Part shown: positions 3,472 through 17,214 of the stretch, in pieces
How positions within the stretch are numbered: position 1 is the stretch's first letter
Layout: every line of letters starts with the position of its first letter
Notes under the pieces: generated by a model
Told to the model about the DNA's origin: nothing
The model's input: the letters and a program-made list of their open reading frames with translations, nothing else
The model's database searches: none
IMG/VR virus record: IMGVR_UViG_3300046001_000843
Coordinates: 1 to 24,752 of that record
Direction: 5' to 3' (one strand)
Length of the DNA: 24,752 nt
Source: a virus
Program-made: the position numbers and the translations under genes

Positions 3472-3732
3472 ATGTACGCATTCAGAGAAGAGGCTAACTG
3501 TGCAGACACAGACTCAGAGGCTTTCTTTACCGTAGAAAGAACCAGTACATATACTGATATAAAAATGCTACGTAAGATATGTGGCAACTGTACCGTAATA
3601 GACCAGTGCTTAGACTATGCACTCAAGCATGAAGTGCTAGGATACTGGGGTAATACAACAGAGTTCCAACGCAAAAGGTTACGTCAAAAACTTAATATAA
3701 TTCCACGCCAGTTACACTTAGACTATAATTAA
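3472..3732 (+). CDS. WhiB-family iron-sulfur transcription regulator
   Basis: The 86-aa product carries the four WhiB cysteines: C10 in EANCADTD, C37 and C40 in ICGNC, and C46 in IDQCLDYAL, followed by the turn motif VLGYWGNTTEFQRKRLR and a basic tail. In this family the cysteines hold a 4Fe-4S cluster, the G[VI]WGG-like turn contacts sigma region 4, and the basic tail contacts DNA. WhiB proteins are found in Actinobacteria and their phages, where some phage versions down-regulate host whiB genes and cause superinfection exclusion. GGAAG (3459-3463) precedes ATG 3472. It is the last gene before the terminator and may retune host transcription together with the sigma-like protein (inference). 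Confidence 0.92.
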   Translation: MYAFREEANCADTDSEAFFTVERTSTYTDIKMLRKICGNCTVIDQCLDYALKHEVLGYWGNTTEFQRKRLRQKLNIIPRQLHLDYN

Positions 3733-7008: not shown

Positions 7009-7773
7009 CTACTCCTTTGATTGTTGTTGTAACTTCTTCTTCATTTCAACCATACCCCAGTACAGGCTGTAATAGTCGTGGTCTAAAGCAAATCGTTTCA
7101 TATGTGCTGCAATGATTCCTGTGTGTGCGTGAACAGGGATACCAGCACGGTGTACCTTGTTGAAGAAGACAATATCCTCACCAACAAAGTTATCTCCTAA
7201 TCCTTCTTGCTCTGCAAAGAGTGACTGATTAGGGAACATCTCACGTAGTTTGATAAATACGCTACGGTGCATAATAACTAGACCCATACCTGCTGAGTCA
7301 ATCTTTATCAGTTGATTCTCAGGTAGTGGATGGATGTGCTGGATTGAGTTGTCAGTCACACGGTTAAAGATACAAGGAACTGGGGAAGCAAGGCTTCCTT
7401 CTCGTTCCTTTGAGATAAAGTAGACACCACTTACGATTGGGCGATGGACTGCATCTGCCAAGTCCCACAGTTGGGCAATCATATGAATGTCAACTACAAT
7501 GTCAGAGTCAATCCATAGAATCCAATCGGATTTGATTTCATCAATCCAGTGGTCTGTTAGTGCTTGACGTTGACGACCTATTTGGTTGCCCTGCACACGT
7601 AGTGTGTGGCTGATAGGGATACCATTGGCTGGTGCTTGCACACCAATAGCCATTAATCCTTCTGTAAACTTTCCATCCACCATACCGTTATCGCACCAAG
7701 CGATAGTAAGTGTTCCCTTACCCTTAGGTGCTGGTGATGGTTTGCCTATTACTGGTTTGTTATACTTAGACAT
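7009..7773 (-). CDS. GT-A fold glycosyltransferase
   Basis: The 254-aa protein has the family-2-like glycosyltransferase layout: an N-terminal nucleotide-binding half (TIAWCDNGMVDGKF, then NQIGRQRQALTDHWIDEI), the metal-binding DxD in WILWIDSDIV (D89, D91), and the acidic catalytic-type motif VGEDIVFF (E199, D200) followed by a His-rich segment (IPVHAHTGIIAAHMK). It would transfer a sugar from a nucleotide sugar. Targets could be a virion protein, host surface glycans or DNA. Its place between tail genes, in the late operon, favours virion or surface glycosylation (inference). It is soluble, with no membrane anchor. Confidence 0.78.
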   Translation of the reverse strand: MSKYNKPVIGKPSPAPKGKGTLTIAWCDNGMVDGKFTEGLMAIGVQAPANGIPISHTLRVQGNQIGRQRQALTDHWIDEIKSDWILWIDSDIVVDIHMIAQLWDLADAVHRPIVSGVYFISKEREGSLASPVPCIFNRVTDNSIQHIHPLPENQLIKIDSAGMGLVIMHRSVFIKLREMFPNQSLFAEQEGLGDNFVGEDIVFFNKVHRAGIPVHAHTGIIAAHMKRFALDHDYYSLYWGMVEMKKKLQQQSKE

Positions 7774-7788
7774 TTTGTCCCCTATTGT

Positions 7789-7986
7789 CTACCACTTACC
7801 CAACGGGCAAGTTGCTGGTTGTAACTTAGTTTTCATATACATAAAGCATCCACACTTCTTACAAGTGGAGGTTAATTCTACCAATTCTGGGCAAGATTTG
7901 CAAGTATTAAATCTGCGTTCTGCCTCTTCTGGCGTTGCCCTGGGAGTGCCATTAAACATATCCCAAGGCTTTACGCTATCTGTCAT
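7789..7986 (-). CDS. Cys-rich zinc-binding protein, 65 aa
   Basis: Six cysteines are arranged as CKSCPE (C29, C32), CKKCGC (C42, C45, C47) and CPLGKW (C60). The pattern is that of a small zinc-ribbon family frequent in phages, with a RRFNTCKSCPEL start and a KTKLQPATCPLGKW end. The N-terminal part (VKPWDMFNGTPRATPEEAERR) is a typical leader of this family. Its function is unknown. It sits directly before the glycosyltransferase gene with 15 bases between them and is likely co-translated. Confidence 0.75.
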   Translation of the reverse strand: MTDSVKPWDMFNGTPRATPEEAERRFNTCKSCPELVELTSTCKKCGCFMYMKTKLQPATCPLGKW

Positions 7987-8006: not shown

Positions 8007-8405
8007 TTAGCAAGGTATGTCGCTTGGGTATCCGCTTGTTGAGCAGAATACTACACAATCTTCAGAATCATCTGTAGATGATGTATAACGACCACCATTA
8101 AAGGTTGTGCAGTACCAAGTAGTAGTTGGTGGTGGTGAAGAACAAGCCTGAGATTCTGTTTCAGTCGTTGATGAAGTCTCTGTGTATGTAGAGCAGTCAG
8201 ATGCTGTACAAGTTCTTGTGCCACTTACAGTACGAGTTCTGGTTTGAATACTATCTACACAAGCAGAGTAAGCAGACCATTCTCCATATGTATAACTCCA
8301 GTTACCACACACAGGTGTGCAAGTTGGTGGCGGTGGTGGAGGCGGTGGTGGTGGTGGTGTTGATGTATCGTATGATGCTGCGATTACGCCAAATAGAAAA
8401 CTCAT
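8007..8405 (-). CDS. Proline-tract protein with thrombospondin-like segment
   Basis: The 132-aa product has a short hydrophobic N-terminus (MSFLFGVIAASY), an uninterrupted run of 11 prolines (about residues 17-27), then a Cys- and Thr-rich segment (CGNWSYTYGEWSAYSACVDS followed by TRTRTVSGTRTC). The Trp spacing, the WSxxSxC and the TRTR pattern resemble thrombospondin type 1 repeats, which bind glycans and proteins. The tail has further cysteines (WYCTTFNGGRY, ending IPC). It is probably an exposed virion decoration or receptor-interaction protein, but is not recognised as a named family. The start overlaps the upstream fibre gene stop (TAATG). Confidence 0.6.
   Translation of the reverse strand: MSFLFGVIAASYDTSTPPPPPPPPPPPTCTPVCGNWSYTYGEWSAYSACVDSIQTRTRTVSGTRTCTASDCSTYTETSSTTETESQACSSPPPTTTWYCTTFNGGRYTSSTDDSEDCVVFCSTSGYPSDIPC
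8325..8357. repeat. Trinucleotide repeat (polyproline tract)
   Basis: Eleven consecutive TGG/CGG/AGG units on the plus strand encode 11 prolines on the minus strand. Gain or loss of a unit would change the linker length without shifting frame. Confidence 0.9.
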
Positions 8406-9241
8406 TAGGCTGACAAATCTCCAGTAGCAATGAATGTATCAGTACCAGTACAGAGAATTGCTGCAACAGATGCCTGAGCACGAAGTGCTAAGCCAGGTGT
8501 TCCAGAGATAGTAACTCCTGCACCCTGTGTTAGGGATAGGGCACCTGCACCTGAACGTGAGATGTATACAACATCTCCCTGCGAAAACACGCTAGGTGGG
8601 ACAGTTACGTTAGCAGTAGATGATGACGTAACGATTACCATCTTAGACTTATCGGTTGCTGTCAGTGTGTAGGCAGATGTCTGTGAGTTAATCGCTACAG
8701 ATAGCACTGGGAAAGTGATGACTGGTGTTGTGATAGTTGGAGAGGTTAGAGTCTTTCCAGTAAGAGTTTCTGTTCCAGCGATAGTAGCAAAGTTGTTATC
8801 AGATAATGCTGTATTAAACTGTGCTGTAGTTCCTGTCACGGTGTTAGATGCAAGACTTATTGTCTTGTTAGTAAGCGTTGATGTAGATGCTGAGGTGATT
8901 GCCGCATCTACTCCTGTTGTAAAGTAATCTAAGTCATCAGATGTAAGTACGTGCTTAACTGTTGCTCCACCATTGTGGGCAATAGCAGATGTGCCAGCCT
9001 GACCACGAACAATAGTTATAGTATCACCAGATACTGGATTTCCAGATGCTGATTTTACAAATACAATTTCTTCAAGGGCTGTATCTGGGTCAATAGCAAT
9101 AGTAAACTGGTCATTGGCAGCAAGAGTTTCTGGAACCAAGGTTGAACCTGTTGTACTTGCTACAGTAATAGTAGTAGCAGAAGAAGATATGCCTGTTGCA
9201 AGAGTGGTTTCAATAGAAGTTGAACTGAACATTCTAGTCAT
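8405..9241 (-). CDS. Tail fibre-like structural protein
   Basis: The 278-aa protein is Ser/Thr/Ala-rich and beta-rich. An N-terminal part (TTLATGISSSATTITVAST, then DTALEEIVFVKSASG and TIVRGQAGTSAIAHNGG) matches adaptor-like domains of fibre proteins. A central repeat region (STLTNKTISLASNTVTG, ETLTGKTLTSPTI) is a very common phage fibre repeat. The C-terminal beta domain reads VVYISRSGAGALSLTQGAG and VTISGTPGLALRA. It probably forms trimeric fibres or spikes on the tail. AAGGAA precedes its ATG. It lies between the neck-type protein and the thrombospondin-like protein. Confidence 0.72.
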   Translation of the reverse strand: MTRMFSSTSIETTLATGISSSATTITVASTTGSTLVPETLAANDQFTIAIDPDTALEEIVFVKSASGNPVSGDTITIVRGQAGTSAIAHNGGATVKHVLTSDDLDYFTTGVDAAITSASTSTLTNKTISLASNTVTGTTAQFNTALSDNNFATIAGTETLTGKTLTSPTITTPVITFPVLSVAINSQTSAYTLTATDKSKMVIVTSSSTANVTVPPSVFSQGDVVYISRSGAGALSLTQGAGVTISGTPGLALRAQASVAAILCTGTDTFIATGDLSA

Positions 9242-9250
9242 TTATTTTCC

Positions 9251-10156
9251 TTAACGGTTGTAGCGAATCTTGGTTGGGAACTTACCTTGCAACTTACCAG
9301 CCTCTTCATTAAGACGCTGTTGGTATAGAGCAAAGATGTAACGAGATGCAGATGTACCAGCAGTAGAAGGTAACTTAGTATCTGCTGTGTCTGATTCTGC
9401 TGAGGCTAGGTTAATTCTGCCTGGGTCAATGTATGAAAGCAGACGATAGGCTGCTCCAAGGGCTACAATATCTCTGCAAGATTCAGTTAAACCAGTTACT
9501 GTTGTGAACTCATCATTGTTGTTAACAAGTAGTGATGGCTCTTTGGTGTAGTAGACCTGAACTGTGCGACCTGGAGTGATGCCATCATAGACAGTAATAG
9601 TGTGACCTGATGTAAATGCACCAGTGTTTGCCATTGGGTCTGGACGCCAACGCTTTACTGGGTACCATTCCTTAGATGAACCAACTGATTGCCACGATAC
9701 AGATAGTACTTCTTCTGCCTCAGCAGGTAGTGTGTAGGTATTGACTACGCCATTAAATGTAAAGGTGGTAGATGCAGTACCCCACAACTTAGGAAACAAT
9801 GAACCGATTGTATCGTTGATTGCCTTCTTGATTGAAGAACGTGGGAAGGTTGGAGATAGGATTACAGGTGCAAACTTTGCGTGAGATGCAGCCTGTGTTC
9901 CTTGGAATCCACGACCAAAACCAGCCTCAATAACATTCAGAGTATTGGTTGTTTTATTAAATGAATCTACATAGATAAGTTCATCATCAATTTCAACGAT
10001 ACCTTTGGATAGGTTGTCTTGTGAACCTACCTCAATAGAAGTGTCCGATTCATTAATGCCACCAGTATTCTTAACAAAGGTAATACGGTCTTGGTTAAGG
10101 GTATAACCTTGTAGGTTTGCCTTAACCTCATCAATTAAATCTGATAATATAGCCAC
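9251..10156 (-). CDS. Probable neck/tail adaptor structural protein
   Basis: The 301-aa protein starts at GTG (10154-10156), overlapping the previous stop (TAGTG). Segments such as EIDDELIYVDSF, GFGRGFQGTQAASH, SSIKKAINDTIGSLFPKLW and YTLPAEAEEVLSVSW, and the helical C-terminus (ESCRDIVALGAAYRLLSYI), are like those of phage head-tail adaptor or tail-tube-associated proteins. The mixture of a beta N-terminal half and a helical end fits an adaptor role. It lies between the adhesin-like protein and the fibre. The structural assignment is reasonably sure; the exact role is not. Confidence 0.6.
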   Translation of the reverse strand: MAILSDLIDEVKANLQGYTLNQDRITFVKNTGGINESDTSIEVGSQDNLSKGIVEIDDELIYVDSFNKTTNTLNVIEAGFGRGFQGTQAASHAKFAPVILSPTFPRSSIKKAINDTIGSLFPKLWGTASTTFTFNGVVNTYTLPAEAEEVLSVSWQSVGSSKEWYPVKRWRPDPMANTGAFTSGHTITVYDGITPGRTVQVYYTKEPSLLVNNNDEFTTVTGLTESCRDIVALGAAYRLLSYIDPGRINLASAESDTADTKLPSTAGTSASRYIFALYQQRLNEEAGKLQGKFPTKIRYNR

Positions 10157-10382: not shown

Positions 10383-13300
10383 TTAGTCTCTTCCATTAAA
10401 GTAGTTAGTGATGTCTGCAATGTTCTTAGTTGTTAGTGTATTGCGGAATACTGCTGCACCATAGAACTCCATATCAATATAAAATGCATTTACAGATGTT
10501 CTACCTATTTTCAATGTATCAATGATATTCAATACAGAACCTATAGATGATATAGAAGTCGATGTAGAATCTGTACCGTTTAAGTTTGTTACAACGGTTT
10601 GTGCAGTTCTGTCTACTCTCATCATAACTGTTTCAAGTTGTCCAGCAGTTGAAGTAACACTGCCTGAAGCAACTGATGAAGATGAGCCACCAAGATACGA
10701 TGAAAGAGTTGCACCAGTTCCAGCAGGTTTTCTTATTTGATAACCAGGATAATCATTTCCATTACTCTTTGAGATAACTGGACCATAATCACCACTGAAA
10801 GATGGTCTACGTATAATACCCATCACAGTAAACGAATCTGCTGCCCCAAAGTTCAAGAAGTCTGTAGTGCTATTGGCAAAGGTGTTAGTTGCTCCTGGGT
10901 AGAGGTAACCAGCATCAATAACACCAGCACTGCGGAATGTGCTACCAGAACGGTTGATTGTTACAGTGGCACCATTAGTTGAGGATTCAGTAAATGATGT
11001 CTGCAATAGGCTGGTAATGCTTTCCTCAAAGTTAGCATCGAAGGCTACTGTGCCACCGATACCGTTGAGTACCTGTGCACGGAAGAACTTGCCACGCAAA
11101 GTATTTTGTCCACCGACAGCACCAATTTCAAGCGCTGCGGTTGAATTGTAAATACTGGTAACTCCAGCAGTTGTTTGAGTGGTTCCGACTTGAGTCCAAG
11201 TTATGCCATCATCAGATGTGAAGAATTTAGAGTCATTGCCACTTGCACCATTGTCTACATCTAATGTCCAACGCACCCATTTGGTAGAACCATCTACGAG
11301 ACCTAGACCACCTAGGAAATGCGAAAGAACGTTAGTTCCATCCGCAGACCATTCTGCAAATAATCCACCGTTGGTGTTCAGTGAAAAACGCCAAGACCTT
11401 TGATTTCCTGTAACTTGCCACTTGGCTATAAAATTTGAAACTGCAGCAGGAGTCCAATCATCTGCTGCAACCTTGACTCTTACATCAATATCACCAGTGA
11501 TATCTAACGGAACTGAATCTGGCGCTGAAGCAGTATTACTATTAACCCCTGGCAGATACAGATAGTTGCCAGTAGATACGAATGTACCAACGCCAGACTT
11601 GTTGATAGTAACTGTGTAGGCATTGCTTGAACGGTCTACAAATGTAGTCTGAGATGGCAGTGTAATGACTGAGGCATCAGCATCTAGGACTATTGTGCCA
11701 TCAATACCGTTCTTAACGATTGAACGGAAGAACTTACCCTTGGAAACTTCAATAGTTCCATTTGTGCGTGAACCAACTTCAACTGGTGTTGTGCTATTAA
11801 ATATGCTTGTTACACCCGCTGTTGTTACAGTTGTACCCAACTGTGTCCAAGTAGAACCATCATCTGATAAAAAGAACTTAACGTCATTGCCACCAGAACC
11901 ATTGTCTACGTCAATAGTAGCACGTACCCACTTAACAGTTCCGTCTGTAATTGATGTTGCAACAGTACAAGACCTAGTTAATAATGTTGAACCATCTGGT
12001 GATGTTGTTAATTGTAAAATTCCACCAGTGGTGATACCTAAAAAGTAAGACCTTTGATTTCCAGTTGCATTTGATTTTGATAATAAGCAACTTCCTGCTC
12101 CTGGTGTCCAATCGTCAAGTGCTACCTTAACCTGAATATCCAAGTCACCTGCAATATCCAAAGGTGGATTATCTGCAACAGACATATAGTTGCCAGAGGC
12201 ACCAGAGAGGTAGACATAGTTCTCGGCTGCAGTTGAATGAGCCATATAGCGGTTGTTGACTTCCATATAGTCATCAGTACCAAAGAGCCAAGTAGGTTGA
12301 GTTACAGCAACGCTCTTGCGTCCAGAGGTGGAACGGTTGATGGTAACTGTTTGACCAGTAACTGCGGTAAAGGATGTAGCAGCACCAGTAGTAATAACTG
12401 AGGTGTCTACATCAAGGACCTTGGTTGTCTCTGTAATGTCTGAGTAGATTTGGGCGCGGAATACTTTAGATGCCAAATGTTGTCCACTGCCAGATATTCT
12501 GCTTCCAATTTCAATAGTTCCAGTGCCAGCAAATATAGTTGTAGTGCCAGCACTTGTAACGGTAGTACCTAATTGAGTCCAAGTGGTACCGTCTGTGGAA
12601 GTAAAGAACTTAGCATCTTTGCCACCTGCTCCGTTATCGACATCAAAGGTTACTCTAACCCATAATGGAGAACCATCGCTTACTGTAGGAGCAGTAGTTG
12701 AGTTTATTTGTGTTGTTGCTGTTCCATCACTACTCCAAGCAAATCCTAATGTTCCATTTGTATTTAAGTAGAAGTTATAAGAATAATTTCCAGCAATCGG
12801 TAATCTTGATATGAGTGAACCTATTGCTGCTGGTGTCCAGTCGTCCATAGCACCATACCAACGTAGGTCAATATCTCCAGATATTTGCAGAGCAGCGGAG
12901 TTTGGTGCGCTCATTTGATTACCAGCAACCCCAGTCAGATACACATAATTAGTGCCAGTATGGTCTAGGAACTTAGGGTCGTTAGAGTCTGCAGCAGTGC
13001 TAGAGCCAACAGTAGTTGGCAGTAGTGAGCCAGCAGTGCCATAGTTGGCAACCGTTCCTACGCCATTAACTGTAACTGTCTGACCAGTAGTAGCGGTAAA
13101 GGTGTCTAGGTTAGAAGACTTGTAATCGGTAGCAATGTTGACATCAAGTACGGTGGTGCCACCAATGCCATCTAGTACTTGAGCACGGTAAACTTTACCT
13201 GTTAATAAACTAGCATTTTCAGAAGCGCCTATTTCAAGAATAGATGTGCTATTAAAAATAGAAGTAGTACCAGCAGTTGTTACAGTAGTTCCTAATTGTG

Positions 13301-14039
13301 TCCAAGTCGTACCATCATCTGAGAGATAGAACTTAACGTCATTGCCAGAGGCACCGTTGTCTACGTCTAAGGTTGCACGGACCCATTTAACAGAACCATC
13401 TGTAACGCCAGTGGCTACTGTAGATGCTTTAGATATTGCTGTTGCGCTTGTTCCAAGAGATGACCAAGTTATCTGTAAAGTTCCGTCAGTGTTTACTTGA
13501 AGTCTGTAAGAACGATTATTTGTAGCAGTGGTATATTTTGAAATAATTATTTGAGCAGCAGATGGTGTCCAGTCATCTAGGGCAACACGTGCTCTTAGGT
13601 CAATGTCTCCAGTAACATCAAGAGCCGTAGCATCTGGAGTGCTTAAATAGTTTCCAGCAACACCAGGTAGGTAAACATAACCAAGACTACCCCAGTTAGT
13701 AGGAGTAGCAGCATCTACATAGTAGGAAGCAGAGCGTGCAGTAGTTCCCTTAAGTAGTACCTCTGCTGGGTGTCCGATGGTGCGTAGCGCATCAACATCA
13801 GACAAGCCAGTAGTTCCTGCTAGTTCATTACAAACTGCAGTAAGTCCCTTGTAATTATTATCTGTACGGTTAGGGTCAACAATGTAATTTAGAGCACCCA
13901 ATAACCCTTGACCTGAGGTACCTGCCCAAACGTTGGCAGCACCTTGCTCTTCTAGGAAGTCATCTCTATCTGGGTATACGCCATAGTTTGCGATACGGTT
14001 GAGTTCTGCACATAATGGACTACCAGTATTACCAGCCAT
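10383..14039 (-). CDS. Giant adhesin-like tail protein with tandem LamG-like repeats
   Basis: The 1218-aa product has an N-terminal domain (LNRIANYGVYPDRDDFLEEQ, then LCAELN and AVCNELAGTTG), likely the virion-attachment part. Four tandem copies of a domain of about 220-245 residues follow, starting near residues 120, 364, 606 and 823. Each opens with YxYLxGxxGNxxSxPD, passes through D(I/L)D..(V/M)..DDWTP and W(V/T)R.T.DVDNG..G.D.KF, then WTQ(L/V)GTT..(T/S)AG.T(S/T)I(F/Y). A divergent LamG-like domain closes the protein (ISKSNGNDYPGYQIRK, then NIIDTLKIGRTS). The fold is concanavalin/LamG-like, typically sugar- or protein-binding. It is a candidate receptor-binding protein. AAGGAAGG precedes ATG 14039. 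Confidence 0.75.
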   Translation of the reverse strand: MAGNTGSPLCAELNRIANYGVYPDRDDFLEEQGAANVWAGTSGQGLLGALNYIVDPNRTDNNYKGLTAVCNELAGTTGLSDVDALRTIGHPAEVLLKGTTARSASYYVDAATPTNWGSLGYVYLPGVAGNYLSTPDATALDVTGDIDLRARVALDDWTPSAAQIIISKYTTATNNRSYRLQVNTDGTLQITWSSLGTSATAISKASTVATGVTDGSVKWVRATLDVDNGASGNDVKFYLSDDGTTWTQLGTTVTTAGTTSIFNSTSILEIGASENASLLTGKVYRAQVLDGIGGTTVLDVNIATDYKSSNLDTFTATTGQTVTVNGVGTVANYGTAGSLLPTTVGSSTAADSNDPKFLDHTGTNYVYLTGVAGNQMSAPNSAALQISGDIDLRWYGAMDDWTPAAIGSLISRLPIAGNYSYNFYLNTNGTLGFAWSSDGTATTQINSTTAPTVSDGSPLWVRVTFDVDNGAGGKDAKFFTSTDGTTWTQLGTTVTSAGTTTIFAGTGTIEIGSRISGSGQHLASKVFRAQIYSDITETTKVLDVDTSVITTGAATSFTAVTGQTVTINRSTSGRKSVAVTQPTWLFGTDDYMEVNNRYMAHSTAAENYVYLSGASGNYMSVADNPPLDIAGDLDIQVKVALDDWTPGAGSCLLSKSNATGNQRSYFLGITTGGILQLTTSPDGSTLLTRSCTVATSITDGTVKWVRATIDVDNGSGGNDVKFFLSDDGSTWTQLGTTVTTAGVTSIFNSTTPVEVGSRTNGTIEVSKGKFFRSIVKNGIDGTIVLDADASVITLPSQTTFVDRSSNAYTVTINKSGVGTFVSTGNYLYLPGVNSNTASAPDSVPLDITGDIDVRVKVAADDWTPAAVSNFIAKWQVTGNQRSWRFSLNTNGGLFAEWSADGTNVLSHFLGGLGLVDGSTKWVRWTLDVDNGASGNDSKFFTSDDGITWTQVGTTQTTAGVTSIYNSTAALEIGAVGGQNTLRGKFFRAQVLNGIGGTVAFDANFEESITSLLQTSFTESSTNGATVTINRSGSTFRSAGVIDAGYLYPGATNTFANSTTDFLNFGAADSFTVMGIIRRPSFSGDYGPVISKSNGNDYPGYQIRKPAGTGATLSSYLGGSSSSVASGSVTSTAGQLETVMMRVDRTAQTVVTNLNGTDSTSTSISSIGSVLNIIDTLKIGRTSVNAFYIDMEFYGAAVFRNTLTTKNIADITNYFNGRD
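10915..13685 (-). repeat. Four tandem coding repeats, about 650-730 bp each
   Basis: Approximate copy starts on the minus strand are 13680, 12948, 12222 and 11570. Protein similarity is clear throughout. Some stretches are also near-identical as DNA, for example the GTTGTTACAGTAGTTCCTAA-type segment in copies 1 and 3. The copies are diverged enough to be old duplications but could still recombine. Confidence 0.75.
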
Positions 14040-14770: not shown

Positions 14771-14926
14771 TTACTTCTTCTTTCTTACTGCTACGTTGTC
14801 TATTAGATTTGGATAAGGACGTCCTGCTGCTTTAGCACGAGCCTTAGCCCTAGCCTTTTGCGCTGCTGTTAGTGGAGTTGATTTCTTCTTAGGATTCTTA
14901 GTATCCCAAAATGGTTTCTTCTTCAT
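14771..14926 (-). CDS. Small Lys/Arg-rich protein, 51 aa
   Basis: ATG 14926 overlaps the previous stop (TAATG), and the frame ends at TAA 14771-14773, directly before the next ATG. The product starts MKKKPFWDTKNPKKKST and contains AAQKARAKARAKAAGRPYPN and a C-terminal VRKKK. The ARAKAAGRPYPNLIDN block is seen in small proteins of many phages. A predicted basic helix plus a GRPYPN loop would suit nucleic-acid contact. Function unknown. Confidence 0.7.
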   Translation of the reverse strand: MKKKPFWDTKNPKKKSTPLTAAQKARAKARAKAAGRPYPNLIDNVAVRKKK

Positions 14927-14991
14927 TAGCACTTACACGCCTTATCTGACTTGCCGCATAAGCGGCACTTGCCTGGTTTACGGATTGGCAC
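14926..14991 (-). CDS. Cys4 micro-protein, 21 aa
   Basis: GTG 14989-14991 follows the preceding TAA directly; the frame ends at TAA 14926-14928 in a TAATG overlap. The peptide VPIRKPGKCRLCGKSDKACK plus a final C has CxxC and CxC pairs suited to one zinc ion. It is held between two genes without spare bases, so the frame is likely translated. It is one of the smallest plausible genes here. No homologue is known to me. Confidence 0.55.
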   Translation of the reverse strand: MPIRKPGKCRLCGKSDKACKC

Positions 14992-15114
14992 TTACTTTTT
15001 CTTCTTCTTAGCAGTCTTCTTTACCATCTTCTTGCCAGACTTCTTTGCTTCTGCCTTAGCCATTGCCATACCCTTAGCGGTGTATGCAAATTCTTTTCCG
15101 TTTACCTTTGGCAT
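14992..15114 (-). CDS. Small lysine-rich protein, 40 aa
   Basis: ATG 15114 directly follows the TAA of the upstream gene and the frame ends at TAA 14992-14994. The sequence starts MPKVNGKEFAYTAKGMAMAK and ends in a lysine-rich tail (KKMVKKTAKKKKK). The MPKVNGKxFxYTxKGM start recurs in small phage proteins near virion genes. The Lys/Ala tail resembles nucleic-acid-condensing tails. Function unknown. Confidence 0.7.
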   Translation of the reverse strand: MPKVNGKEFAYTAKGMAMAKAEAKKSGKKMVKKTAKKKKK

Positions 15115-15234
15115 TTACTTCATCTTCTTCTTAGCGACAGCCTTCTTTGCAACCTTCTTGGCTACAGCCTTCTTGGCAGTCTTCTTAGCAGACTTCTTCA
15201 TCATCATATCCATCATCATATTCTTGTTCATCAT
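15115..15234 (-). CDS. Histone H1-tail-like protein, 39 aa
   Basis: ATG 15234 overlaps the upstream stop (TAATG); a second ATG follows at once. The protein opens with a Met-rich stretch (MMNKNMMMDMMMKK) and continues as Lys/Ala/Val repeats of the type AKKAVAKKVAKKAVAKK. Composition and repeat pattern are those of histone H1 C-terminal tails and bacterial H1-like proteins, which neutralise and condense DNA. It may be packaged with the genome or bind host DNA (inference). Confidence 0.7.
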   Translation of the reverse strand: MMNKNMMMDMMMKKSAKKTAKKAVAKKVAKKAVAKKKMK

Positions 15235-15662
15235 TATATTGTTCCTACTTCCTTTAGTACCTCGGTTGTATTTTTATTGATGTGTTGTGCAGGAGGCATC
15301 TTCTCAGCGTTGTAAGGTTTGTTAAGAACCTCACTAGCATTGTATGCTGCTTCCACGTGTTGCCTTGTTGTACCACCTGGTTGCATACCCTGAGCACGTG
15401 CGTCTCTGTATGCTTGGAGTTCACCAGTCCATTTCTTGTCAGATATGTCTCTGGTTGCATCTCCTGCATTCATCTGTAAAGTTTTTACTTTACATCCGAA
15501 GCAATCTTCATCACAGGCTGTGTGGTCTATCTCAATATCTTCGTGCTCAAAGGGAGCATCTGAAGTTTCATCACACAAAGAACAACCCCACTTAAGTGCC
15601 TTGAAGTTGTGGTTCTCATCAAATCCAAAATCTAATACCTTGCTAATATGGATATGTTCCAT
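15234..15662 (-). CDS. Conserved Cys-containing phage protein, 142 aa
   Basis: The N-terminal half has paired cysteines and histidines (WGCSLCDE, then IDHTACDEDCFGCKVKTLQM), a likely zinc-binding site. The C-terminal half is helical (KKWTGELQAYRDARAQGMQP, then GTTRQHVEAAYNASEVLNKP). The arrangement CFGCKVKTLQ plus a polar AYRxARAQGxxP block is repeatedly seen in phages of Actinobacteria, usually just after the capsid genes. Function unknown; it may be a minor virion or assembly protein. GGGGAC precedes ATG 15662. Confidence 0.7.
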   Translation of the reverse strand: MEHIHISKVLDFGFDENHNFKALKWGCSLCDETSDAPFEHEDIEIDHTACDEDCFGCKVKTLQMNAGDATRDISDKKWTGELQAYRDARAQGMQPGGTTRQHVEAAYNASEVLNKPYNAEKMPPAQHINKNTTEVLKEVGTI

Positions 15663-16005: not shown

Positions 16006-17214
16006 TTATAGAGCGCCGATTGATGAACCTGATTCGATTCGGTATAGTGCTTCTTCGCGGTAGCGAGCAAAGCCAAGTACGCCGTACCAACCCATTGGGC
16101 GGAAGCGCATCAACTTGTCAACTACTGGTCCGATTACTACGTGTGGCTCTTCGGCAACTGCCTCAGCCATTGCTTGCTGTCCAGCAAGGATAGTGTCGTA
16201 GACACGTGTTACTGGAGTTACTGTGATTGTTGCTCCCACAGTTACAGCAGCAGAGTTAGCAACGTCAACAGTAAATGTTGTTGTTGAACCTGATGTTGCG
16301 ATAGCAGTAATCTTTGCAGATGAACCTACGCCTGTACCAGAAATCTTGTCGCCAACTTCACCGCGTGTTGCGATAACAGATGATGATGCTACACCGAATG
16401 TGAATGCAGCAGATACACCAGCAACTGTTGCTGTTGTTGTTGCTAGAGCAGTCTGGTCTGCACCAATCTTCTCAGAAGCAATACGTGGTGACTCGATGAA
16501 GTATGCACCTTCGTATGAACCGATTTCACCAGCCCAAATGTTTTCATTTGTCTGGTAGTTGTGTGGGTCGCGCCAAGCAGCAGCACCTGTCTCAGCACGA
16601 AGGTCGTGTGAAACTTCTGGGTGAATACCTGCCCAGTACATTGCACCCTTGCGGTATGCAGCCTTGTTGGCACGCAACTTTGCAACAGCCTTACGGATGT
16701 TAGCAGAAGTTAGTGTTGCAGCAGCAGTAACTGTTGCTGATGATGTTGCAGTTGAACCTGAGTAAATTACGTTAGTTCCTGCACCTAGTGTCGCCATTGC
16801 AACTGTGTCGATTGAATCGGCAAGGTTGAATGCGATGATGTTAGCAACTGCTGGGTCTACGTCTGCAAGTGAGAAGAGTTCCAAAGCACGTGTTACCAAT
16901 ACAGAGTTACCGTACTCGTTAAGAGTAATTGTAACTGTGTTTGGTGTTGTCAATGAAACTGCATCTGGGTCAGATGTTTCTGTGAGAGCAGTTGTTGCCT
17001 GTGATAGGTCGTTGTACTTCTGTAGAACTACAGTTGACCCTGGTACTGACTGATTGGTTGGACGCTTATCTGCAACTGAACGAATTAGTGGTTCGGCGCG
17101 GAGAGCGAATTCAACTAGGCGGTCATACGCCTTTTGTACTAAACCAGCACCGCCTGCTGTTCCTCCGAGAGAGGAAGCACCAGTGTTGGTTGTGCCTGTG
17201 TATGATGTAGGCAT
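16006..17214 (-). CDS. Major capsid protein, N4-gp56/P22-like, with insert
   Basis: The 402-aa protein has the conserved elements of N4-gp56 family capsid proteins: an N-terminal VQKAYDRLVEFALRAEPLIR, PGSTVVLQKYNDLSQATTAL, NEYGNSVLVTRALELF, NIRKAVAKLRANKAA and MYWAGIHPEVSHDLR in the middle, and YEGAYFIESPRIA plus RFRPMGWYGVLGFARYREEA towards the C-terminus. It builds the icosahedral shell with the HK97-type fold. Residues about 250-333 are an extra Thr/Ser/Val-rich stretch (GDKISGTGVGSSAKITAIA) interrupting the core, likely an outward-facing domain. It is preceded by scaffold and a near-perfect ribosome binding site. Confidence 0.88.
   Translation of the reverse strand: MPTSYTGTTNTGASSLGGTAGGAGLVQKAYDRLVEFALRAEPLIRSVADKRPTNQSVPGSTVVLQKYNDLSQATTALTETSDPDAVSLTTPNTVTITLNEYGNSVLVTRALELFSLADVDPAVANIIAFNLADSIDTVAMATLGAGTNVIYSGSTATSSATVTAAATLTSANIRKAVAKLRANKAAYRKGAMYWAGIHPEVSHDLRAETGAAAWRDPHNYQTNENIWAGEIGSYEGAYFIESPRIASEKIGADQTALATTTATVAGVSAAFTFGVASSSVIATRGEVGDKISGTGVGSSAKITAIATSGSTTTFTVDVANSAAVTVGATITVTPVTRVYDTILAGQQAMAEAVAEEPHVVIGPVVDKLMRFRPMGWYGVLGFARYREEALYRIESGSSIGAL

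Follow-up and report, generated by a model that had tools for sequence, protein, structure and literature searches.

The open reading frame at 8007-8405 of the window (the whole stretch of DNA analysed, 24,752 bases, which is itself IMG/VR virus entry IMGVR_UViG_3300046001_000843) probably codes for a small adhesin associated with the tail of a freshwater actinophage, made of a docking tag, a polyproline rod, a TSP1-like module and a Cys module, with a spacer whose length would not be tuned by slippage. We propose that this gene, hereafter the slot gene, is translationally coupled to the upstream fibre-like gene through the TAATG overlap, and that the C-terminal domain of the upstream protein serves as docking site for the N-terminal tag of the slot protein, as their co-occurrence suggests. 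A presumably stiff polyproline rod would hold two small modules, both rich in disulfides, at a distance from the virion: one is TSP1-like, with a predicted three-stranded fold, and the other is the C-terminal Cys module. These exchanged modules would probably contact the host surface. The genes of the slot illustrate, one by one, which parts may differ within an island previously linked to host recognition in phages of an abundant freshwater bacterial group, and they show TSP1-like modules in use as exchangeable phage parts. Coordinates are listed in Table 1.

Table 1. Features of the window around and beyond the slot gene
Feature	Position	Strand	Basis or remark
WhiB-like regulator, actinobacterial host marker	3472..3732	+	Marker use after PMC10202952 and PMC6802176
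Glycosyltransferase-like gene (phrog_34859)	7009..7773	-	PHROG match; 61% identical to phage E7
65-aa CxxC protein downstream of the slot gene	7789..7986	-	phrog_13558 / DUF6171
Slot protein	8007..8405	-	ATG at 8405, 132 aa; tag, P11 spacer, TSP1-like module and C-terminal Cys (WYC) module
Four-Cys WYC...CSTSGYP..C module, residues 95-132	8010..8123	-	Common to slot proteins without a TSP1-like module
TSP1-like module, residues 29-88	8142..8321	-	Six Cys; two 15-residue strands predicted
Spacer of eleven prolines, residues 17-27	8325..8357	-	Sequence
Hydrophobic N-terminal tag MSFLFGVIAASY, residues 1-12	8370..8405	-	Putative docking peptide; pLDDT below 50 in the AF2 model
TAATG, overlap of upstream stop and slot start	8403..8407	-	Sequence; putative translational coupling
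Upstream tail-fibre-like protein ('platform'), C-terminus ..FIATGDLSA	8405..9241	-	PHROG tail fiber match, residues 3-176
SU10-type adaptor protein, tail-module landmark	9251..10156	-	Pfam match
Major head protein	16006..17214	-	83% identical to phage E7

The slot gene and its phage

ORF 8007-8405 is a real, conserved gene of 132 codons. Relatives of its product were found in 10 IMG/VR contigs (L001-L010), and further ones via other queries. Seven of these ten (L001-L007) have the tag, the TSP1-like part and the C-terminal part, while L008 and L009 have only the C-terminal module in common with the slot protein and the L010 relative is cut after 14 residues. The nearest relative, L001, carries an identical slot ORF and is 99.6% identical to the window over 10 kb. 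Taken alone, the window slot protein matched no Pfam, PHROG or NCBIfam family, gave 12 matches to PDB sequences (E values of 0.12 or worse, none of them TSP1) and had no match among 50,697 phage records at E<=0.1. The short hydrophobic head, the eleven prolines and the Cys/Trp/Arg-rich segment described in the earlier note are all present in this ORF, with a short T/S stretch between tag and prolines, and residues 29-88 combine the six Cys with WSYTYGEWSAYSAC...QTRTRTV. The slot, the tag, the C-terminal Cys module and the neighbouring enzyme pattern described below were absent from that note.

WhiB-like genes are usable as an actinobacterial host marker (PMC10202952, PMC6802176). Besides such a regulator, the window encodes a sigma factor, a metallophosphoesterase and parts of a primase, and it shows synteny with phage E7, a cultured phage of Ca. 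Planktophila (83% identity for the major head protein, 61% for the glycosyltransferase and 42% for the adaptor). The primase-family matches at 230-610 and 435-1079 on the plus strand (phrog_360 and phrog_849) lie in two overlapping frames, which may represent either two genes or a frameshift. The genomes of E7 and its companion F5, of 39.1 and 38.9 kb (PMC10202952; records OX376640 and OX376641), are filed as Caudovirales sp. ct2KA10 and are unannotated (our L188 and L189). Their variable genomic island 2 is a 5-kb region including part of the fibre gene and encoding two collagen-like and three DUF2541 proteins, for which host recognition has been suggested (PMC10202952). We equated this island with the E7 slot interval by gene content, not by coordinates. 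As in the window, variable genes lie there between the fibre and glycosyltransferase genes, three of them with one common short N-terminus; unlike the window, the E7 interval contains six genes, a longest proline run of 2, no WSxWxxC motif and a different tag. A Pfam scan of one E7 slot protein matched nothing, DUF2541 included.

A conserved slot with a variable content

In the window, the ATG of the slot gene begins on the final base of the stop codon of the upstream gene, whose residues 182-277 match Gordonia phage minor tail proteins, and the slot contains one gene. We surveyed the 80 best of a larger number of IMG/VR contigs fetched with the upstream gene, and inspected the next ORF in each of them. 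The one-base ATG/stop overlap is found in 73 of the 80 loci and the start lies one base later in another; six have no ATG at the slot position, four of which (L107, L130, L144 and L168) still encode a tag-like protein from another start. Downstream of the tag, slot proteins differ widely: L114 has beta-propeller repeats, L130 has Gly-rich domains, and others have spacers joined to Cys modules. The slot protein is encoded in the tail module beside fibre genes, and a constant attachment part is followed by variable distal modules, two properties that we looked for in a tail adhesin or receptor-binding protein. Of the 67 distinct slot proteins of the survey, 35 belong to the YKVLGQ class and 19 carry the tag pattern M..[IL]GI.AS; among the 13 others, eight start like MLNLLAFIGN, MLFLYAIISG or MDVSLLGILH. 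The 35 of the YKVLGQ class count against the adhesin reading, as do the matches of the tag regex to 26 of 664 other (control) ORFs of the surveyed loci. A larger candidate adhesin lies beside the slot, at 10383-14039 on the minus strand: a 1218-aa protein, four stretches of which match phrog_5313.

The type of tag correlates with the C-terminal domain carried by the protein before it, and for this reason we infer that the tag docks on the GDL-type C-terminal domain of that protein. Upstream proteins with a GDL/GDI-type C-terminal domain precede M..LGI.AS-like tags, and those ending in [KR]FA (L118, L134, L160 and L045) precede a different tag type. In all four inspected loci where the slot opens with a YKVLGQ-class gene, a second protein carrying this GDL/GDI-type C-terminus comes after it, and an LGI.AS tag protein is located within 1.5 kb in 19 of the 32 YKVLGQ-class loci with enough sequence. 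Phage E7 has a fibre protein with another C-terminal end and three tandem slot proteins with a third common tag, two of them with a Gly-rich C-terminus and one with a different C-terminus. The WYC module can also be kept on a [KR]FA-type tag, as in L045. L142 (4086-4493) and L125 (1352-1768) encode small collagen-like (GPTGPTG) proteins that end in a GDI-type platform domain and are located after the YKVLGQ gene and before a tag protein.

The identity of proteins to those of the window, computed gene by gene or segment by segment, is strongly mosaic. In L007, the flanking genes are 93-99% identical and the TSP1-like segment 60%. The TSP1-like segment reaches 98% in L002 and L003, with a C-terminal module at 60% and 56%, respectively. 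Finally, L109/L033 have a C-terminal module at 86%, tail genes at 51-67% and the 65-aa CxxC gene at 88%, with no TSP1-like segment. These identities show that slot modules are exchanged between phages, and the slot protein is a cassette made of a short hydrophobic tag, an exchangeable spacer, a TSP1-like module and a 38-aa Cys module. Modular receptor-binding proteins of Klebsiella phages (PMC8262889) likewise have a constant attachment part and exchangeable C-terminal modules; unlike them, the attachment part is only about ten residues long in the window and belongs to a separate gene that overlaps the preceding one. In a search of PDB with the WYC module profile, antibody chains were matched at E values of 0.15 or worse (best 60 of 63 matches), which we read as chance. 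A slot protein of L045 (1508-1804) joins 25 prolines in a row to a WYC module.

Resemblance of residues 29-88 to TSP1

The resemblance of this segment to thrombospondin type 1 repeats exceeds chance. We searched all PDB sequences with a family profile of 14 rows (hmmsearch, E<=10), which gave four matches, three to TSP1 proteins, namely isthmin-1 (E of 0.13) and MIC2 (0.21 and 0.25), and one to lactococcin 972 (0.7). Of two profiles with shuffled columns (from 9 of the 14 rows), one matched two ecdysone receptor chains and the other nothing, so that no TSP1 protein was recovered. When the 14 members were compared one by one with Pfam, seven matched TSP1_spondin (best E of 0.001), three TSP_1 (0.036) and two TSP1_CFP_C (0.0096), and two TSP1 models are the Pfam families matched by most members; the unrelated families SLC25_like (0.023) and MSSP (0.041), with E values comparable to those of the TSP1 models, and PTN_MK_C (0.24) were matched by two members each. 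None of the 14 members scores above the curated Pfam cut-off for any TSP1 model. The window segment has 10.4 bits against TSP1_spondin, for a cut-off of 41, and PF00090, sought in 15 contigs, matched in three of them (L018, L006 and L097), with at best 13.4 bits (L006) versus a cut-off of 21.6. The profile comparison proposed in the earlier note as a check therefore yields matches, all of them below the curated cut-offs.

Structure prediction, another check proposed there, for residues 29-100, gave a confident fold over residues 31-90 (mean pLDDT of 89-96 per ten residues in the AF2 model), with long strands at 53-67 and 73-87 plus a short one. The TSP1-like character claimed in the earlier note is thus retained as regards a confidently predicted fold and conserved cysteines, but not as regards a TSP1 profile match over a curated cut-off. 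Comparison of models with known structures is less clear-cut. Foldseek found no match at E<=0.001 in PDB and BFVD, where unrelated chains rank above TSP1. In VIA-align, among the 50 matches listed for the window model, TSP1 chains have Z values of up to 4.2, level with unrelated folds. Ten of these 50 have at least 18% identity: nine are entries of TSR structures, titled properdin (or complement FP), thrombospondin, BAI1 or semaphorin, and the tenth is a complement complex chain (7nyc_C, 31%). No TSP1-titled chain occurs among the 50 matches listed for the model of L104, a relative whose two long strands have 19 residues each, versus 15 in the window model.

In our opinion, the most telling observation for the TSP1 resemblance is a coordinated change in length. 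The spacing between cysteines is 3-15-16-4-16 in 7 of 10 members and 3-15-17-4-16 in L006; it becomes 3-20-20-4-20 in L104 and 3-19-20-4-20 in L007. The three long segments thus lengthen together in two relatives while the short ones stay at 3 and 4, as a three-stranded sheet would need. W16, S17, C22 and R31 are nearly invariant in the family alignment. A TSP1 domain is characterized by a Trp layer and an R-x-R layer motif, and by a cysteine framework in which WSxC is followed by CxxxCG. The phage segment has the former, with W..W..C then Q.RTR, as well as six Cys, and its model, like TSP1 (TSP_1, TSP1_spondin and TSP1_CFP_C), has two long antiparallel strands and a Trp-rich irregular part. 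Unlike TSP1, it has CTPxCG before the Trp motifs, with the spacing given above, and strands about four residues longer in two relatives. As all members score below the Pfam cut-offs and the order of cysteines differs, we filed the segment as TSP1-like, not as TSP1; judging from sequences and models, homology is likely but not proven.

TSP1-related segments are also found in large proteins of L018, L019 and L097, in two of which they alternate with WYC modules. The 1533-aa protein of L097 (474-5072), where TSP1-like modules alternate with WYC ones, also has repeats of the FFPYFP type and weakly matches Hint at its C-terminus; 20 of its 52 matches are listed, all in the C-terminal Hint part, and the L019 protein had no match in phages. 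A literature search combining thrombospondin and phage tail returned PMC7824862 alone, in which the word appears only in a reference.

Alternative explanations and the proline spacer

It is possible, and a serious competitor to homology, that the W/C/R-rich segment arose independently as a disulfide-rich module of three strands, whose alternating W/Y, R/T and E/T residues mimic TSP1. The sub-threshold Pfam scores, the position of CTPxCG before the Trp motifs, the undistinguished Z values of VIA-align and the lack of TSP1-titled chains among the matches listed for L104 would all be expected under such convergence, and the strands of L104 resemble simple GTRT and ITET repeats. However, TSP1 leads the PDB profile search, the Pfam families ranked by members matched and the high-identity VIA matches listed, and it is lost from shuffled profiles. 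Far less credible is the capture from eukaryotes of a genuine TSP1 domain binding glycosaminoglycan-like polymers. The motif resemblance invites this explanation, and a BFVD entry of another uncultured phage (A0A6J5N7M8, rank 10, E of 0.4) bears the name TSP1 repeat, but no sequence match lies above the cut-offs and relatives were found only in viral contigs, with none of 19 pattern matches confirmed in one scan of bacterial and archaeal genomes.

Two further explanations concern the other parts of the protein. Its hydrophobic N-terminus might point to a secreted or membrane-associated small protein rather than a virion part, involved for example in host surface modification or superinfection exclusion. 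We consider this unlikely: a hydrophobic stretch of some 10 residues is on the short side for a transmembrane segment, and the gene, with its TAATG overlap, keeps a constant position within the tail genes. As for the spacer, the earlier note saw a trinucleotide microsatellite whose slippage would tune spacer length, and hence a phase-variable reach. A repeat does exist (TRF: TGG, 11.7 copies, 84% matches, 8325-8359), but it is an interrupted microsatellite mixing three proline codons (CCA eight times, CCG twice and CCT once), as at most four identical codons occur in a row. The tract is P11 in the window, L001, L002, L003 and L007 and P12 in L005, L181 and L031, a point in favour of slippage. 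Nevertheless, P11 is kept in four distinct genes (window, L002, L003 and L007) despite three codon strings (one in the window and L001, one in L002 and L003, one in L007), which argues for selection on a fixed length. We thus rejected slippage, and a phase-variable spacer is highly improbable. Spacers of relatives differ mainly by replaced composition, other slot spacers being P/T/E mixtures, G/T or T-rich tracts, or long polyproline. A cluster of short tandem repeats is located elsewhere in the window, at 14832-15244.

In our judgement, the finding of the earlier note is real, its TSP1 reading is partly right, and the ORF is most plausibly one cassette in a slot for modular tail adhesins.

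Stalk genes and candidate modifying enzymes in related loci

The most interesting lead arising from this work is a wider pairing of stalk genes with candidate modifying enzymes. We surveyed 124 distinct ORFs following upstream-profile ORFs for stalk composition and nearby enzymes, a T-rich stalk being defined by at least 19 T in 40 residues and a long proline stalk by a run of at least 25 prolines or by 26 P in 40 residues. A PF11397-like gene is found near 10 of the 11 T-rich stalks, the eleventh (L034) being at a contig end with the start of the enzyme visible, and a 2OG-Fe(II) oxygenase near all five long proline stalks, which represent about three lineages. Among the other 113 ORFs (108 when counted by spacer type), a GlcNAc transferase is near one and an oxygenase near four; the 108 comprise 100 without a T-rich or P-rich spacer, seven with P11 or P12 and one with P7. 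Both assignments are supported by Pfam: PF11397 was matched with 128.2 and 133.8 bits (cut-off of 21) and PF13640 with 30.3, 30.6 and 28.0 bits (cut-off of 27). The PF11397 enzymes had no PDB match at E<=0.01 and no NCBIfam match. The oxygenases, which had no NCBIfam match either, exhibit invariant H107, D109, H164 and R176 (HxD...H...R), and all five PDB matches of their profile at E<=0.001 are prolyl hydroxylases.

We then scanned viral contigs with each enzyme, obtaining 78 further loci each, some of them refetched seed contigs. Only enzymes with less than 90% identity to any seen before were retained and clustered at 90%; four of the 78 2OG loci, from which no enzyme ORF was recovered, were left out of this count. 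A T-dominant neighbour was found in 20 of 37 new GlcNAc transferase clusters versus 0 of 30 new oxygenase clusters (Fisher, 3e-7), and a P-dominant one in 2 of 37 versus 13 of 30 (Fisher, 3e-4), counts for which the seeds came from loci showing the pattern, clusters have common ancestry and thresholds are our own choice. The contrast holds when all loci are clustered at 70% (17/26 vs 0/15 for T-dominant neighbours, 2/26 vs 8/15 for P-dominant ones). There was no T- or P-dominant neighbour within 2.5 kb in 15 of the 37 and 17 of the 30 new clusters. Where found, the stalk gene is always upstream of the enzyme (51/51 and 45/45 loci, redundant ones included). No stalk occurs on the minus strand of the enzyme loci, and 104 control loci without either enzyme contain four T-rich and one P-rich stalk.

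This gene pairing suggests dedicated stalk modification. By analogy, the T-rich stalks would be mucin-like and the proline-rich ones extensin-like. Chances are about even, in our view, that aquatic phages tailor their attachment stalks in this way, T-rich ones with a PF11397 GlcNAc transferase and P-rich ones with a prolyl hydroxylase, the result being an adhesin rod glycosylated or hydroxylated by the phage, with the window P11 adhesin as a short representative of this slot lacking both enzymes. The window and the nine other records with a TSP1-like slot protein, all possibly incomplete, yielded neither of the two enzymes, so we do not claim the pairing for the window; its P11 adhesin may carry no modification or may be modified by the adjacent glycosyltransferase, which is of another kind. 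The gene for the latter (phrog_34859) is near five of seven P11/P12 slots; since E7 has it with no such spacer, no pairing is claimed for it either.

Prolyl 4-hydroxylase genes are reported to be abundant in Baltic Sea viruses, where their use has been called cryptic (PMC9301287), and the enzyme of PBCV-1 acts on proline peptides, although hydroxyproline was undetected in its virion proteins (PMC7019647), so that PBCV-1 may stand as a warning for the stalk-hydroxylation reading. The 2OG oxygenases reported here resemble these viral enzymes in matching only prolyl hydroxylases; unlike them, they have a candidate substrate gene directly upstream in slot-related loci, and the pairing thus gives viral prolyl hydroxylases a concrete candidate substrate. 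Among the listed titles and opening abstract lines of the literature on prolyl hydroxylase or glycosylation and phage tails, on tail anchors and polyproline fibres, and on freshwater actinophages, we found no description of such a pairing. In phage records, the GlcNAc transferase query gave three distant matches and the 2OG query none. In one locus (L077), both GlcNAc transferase-like and 2OG oxygenase-like genes follow a protein with PTPAPTAT repeats.
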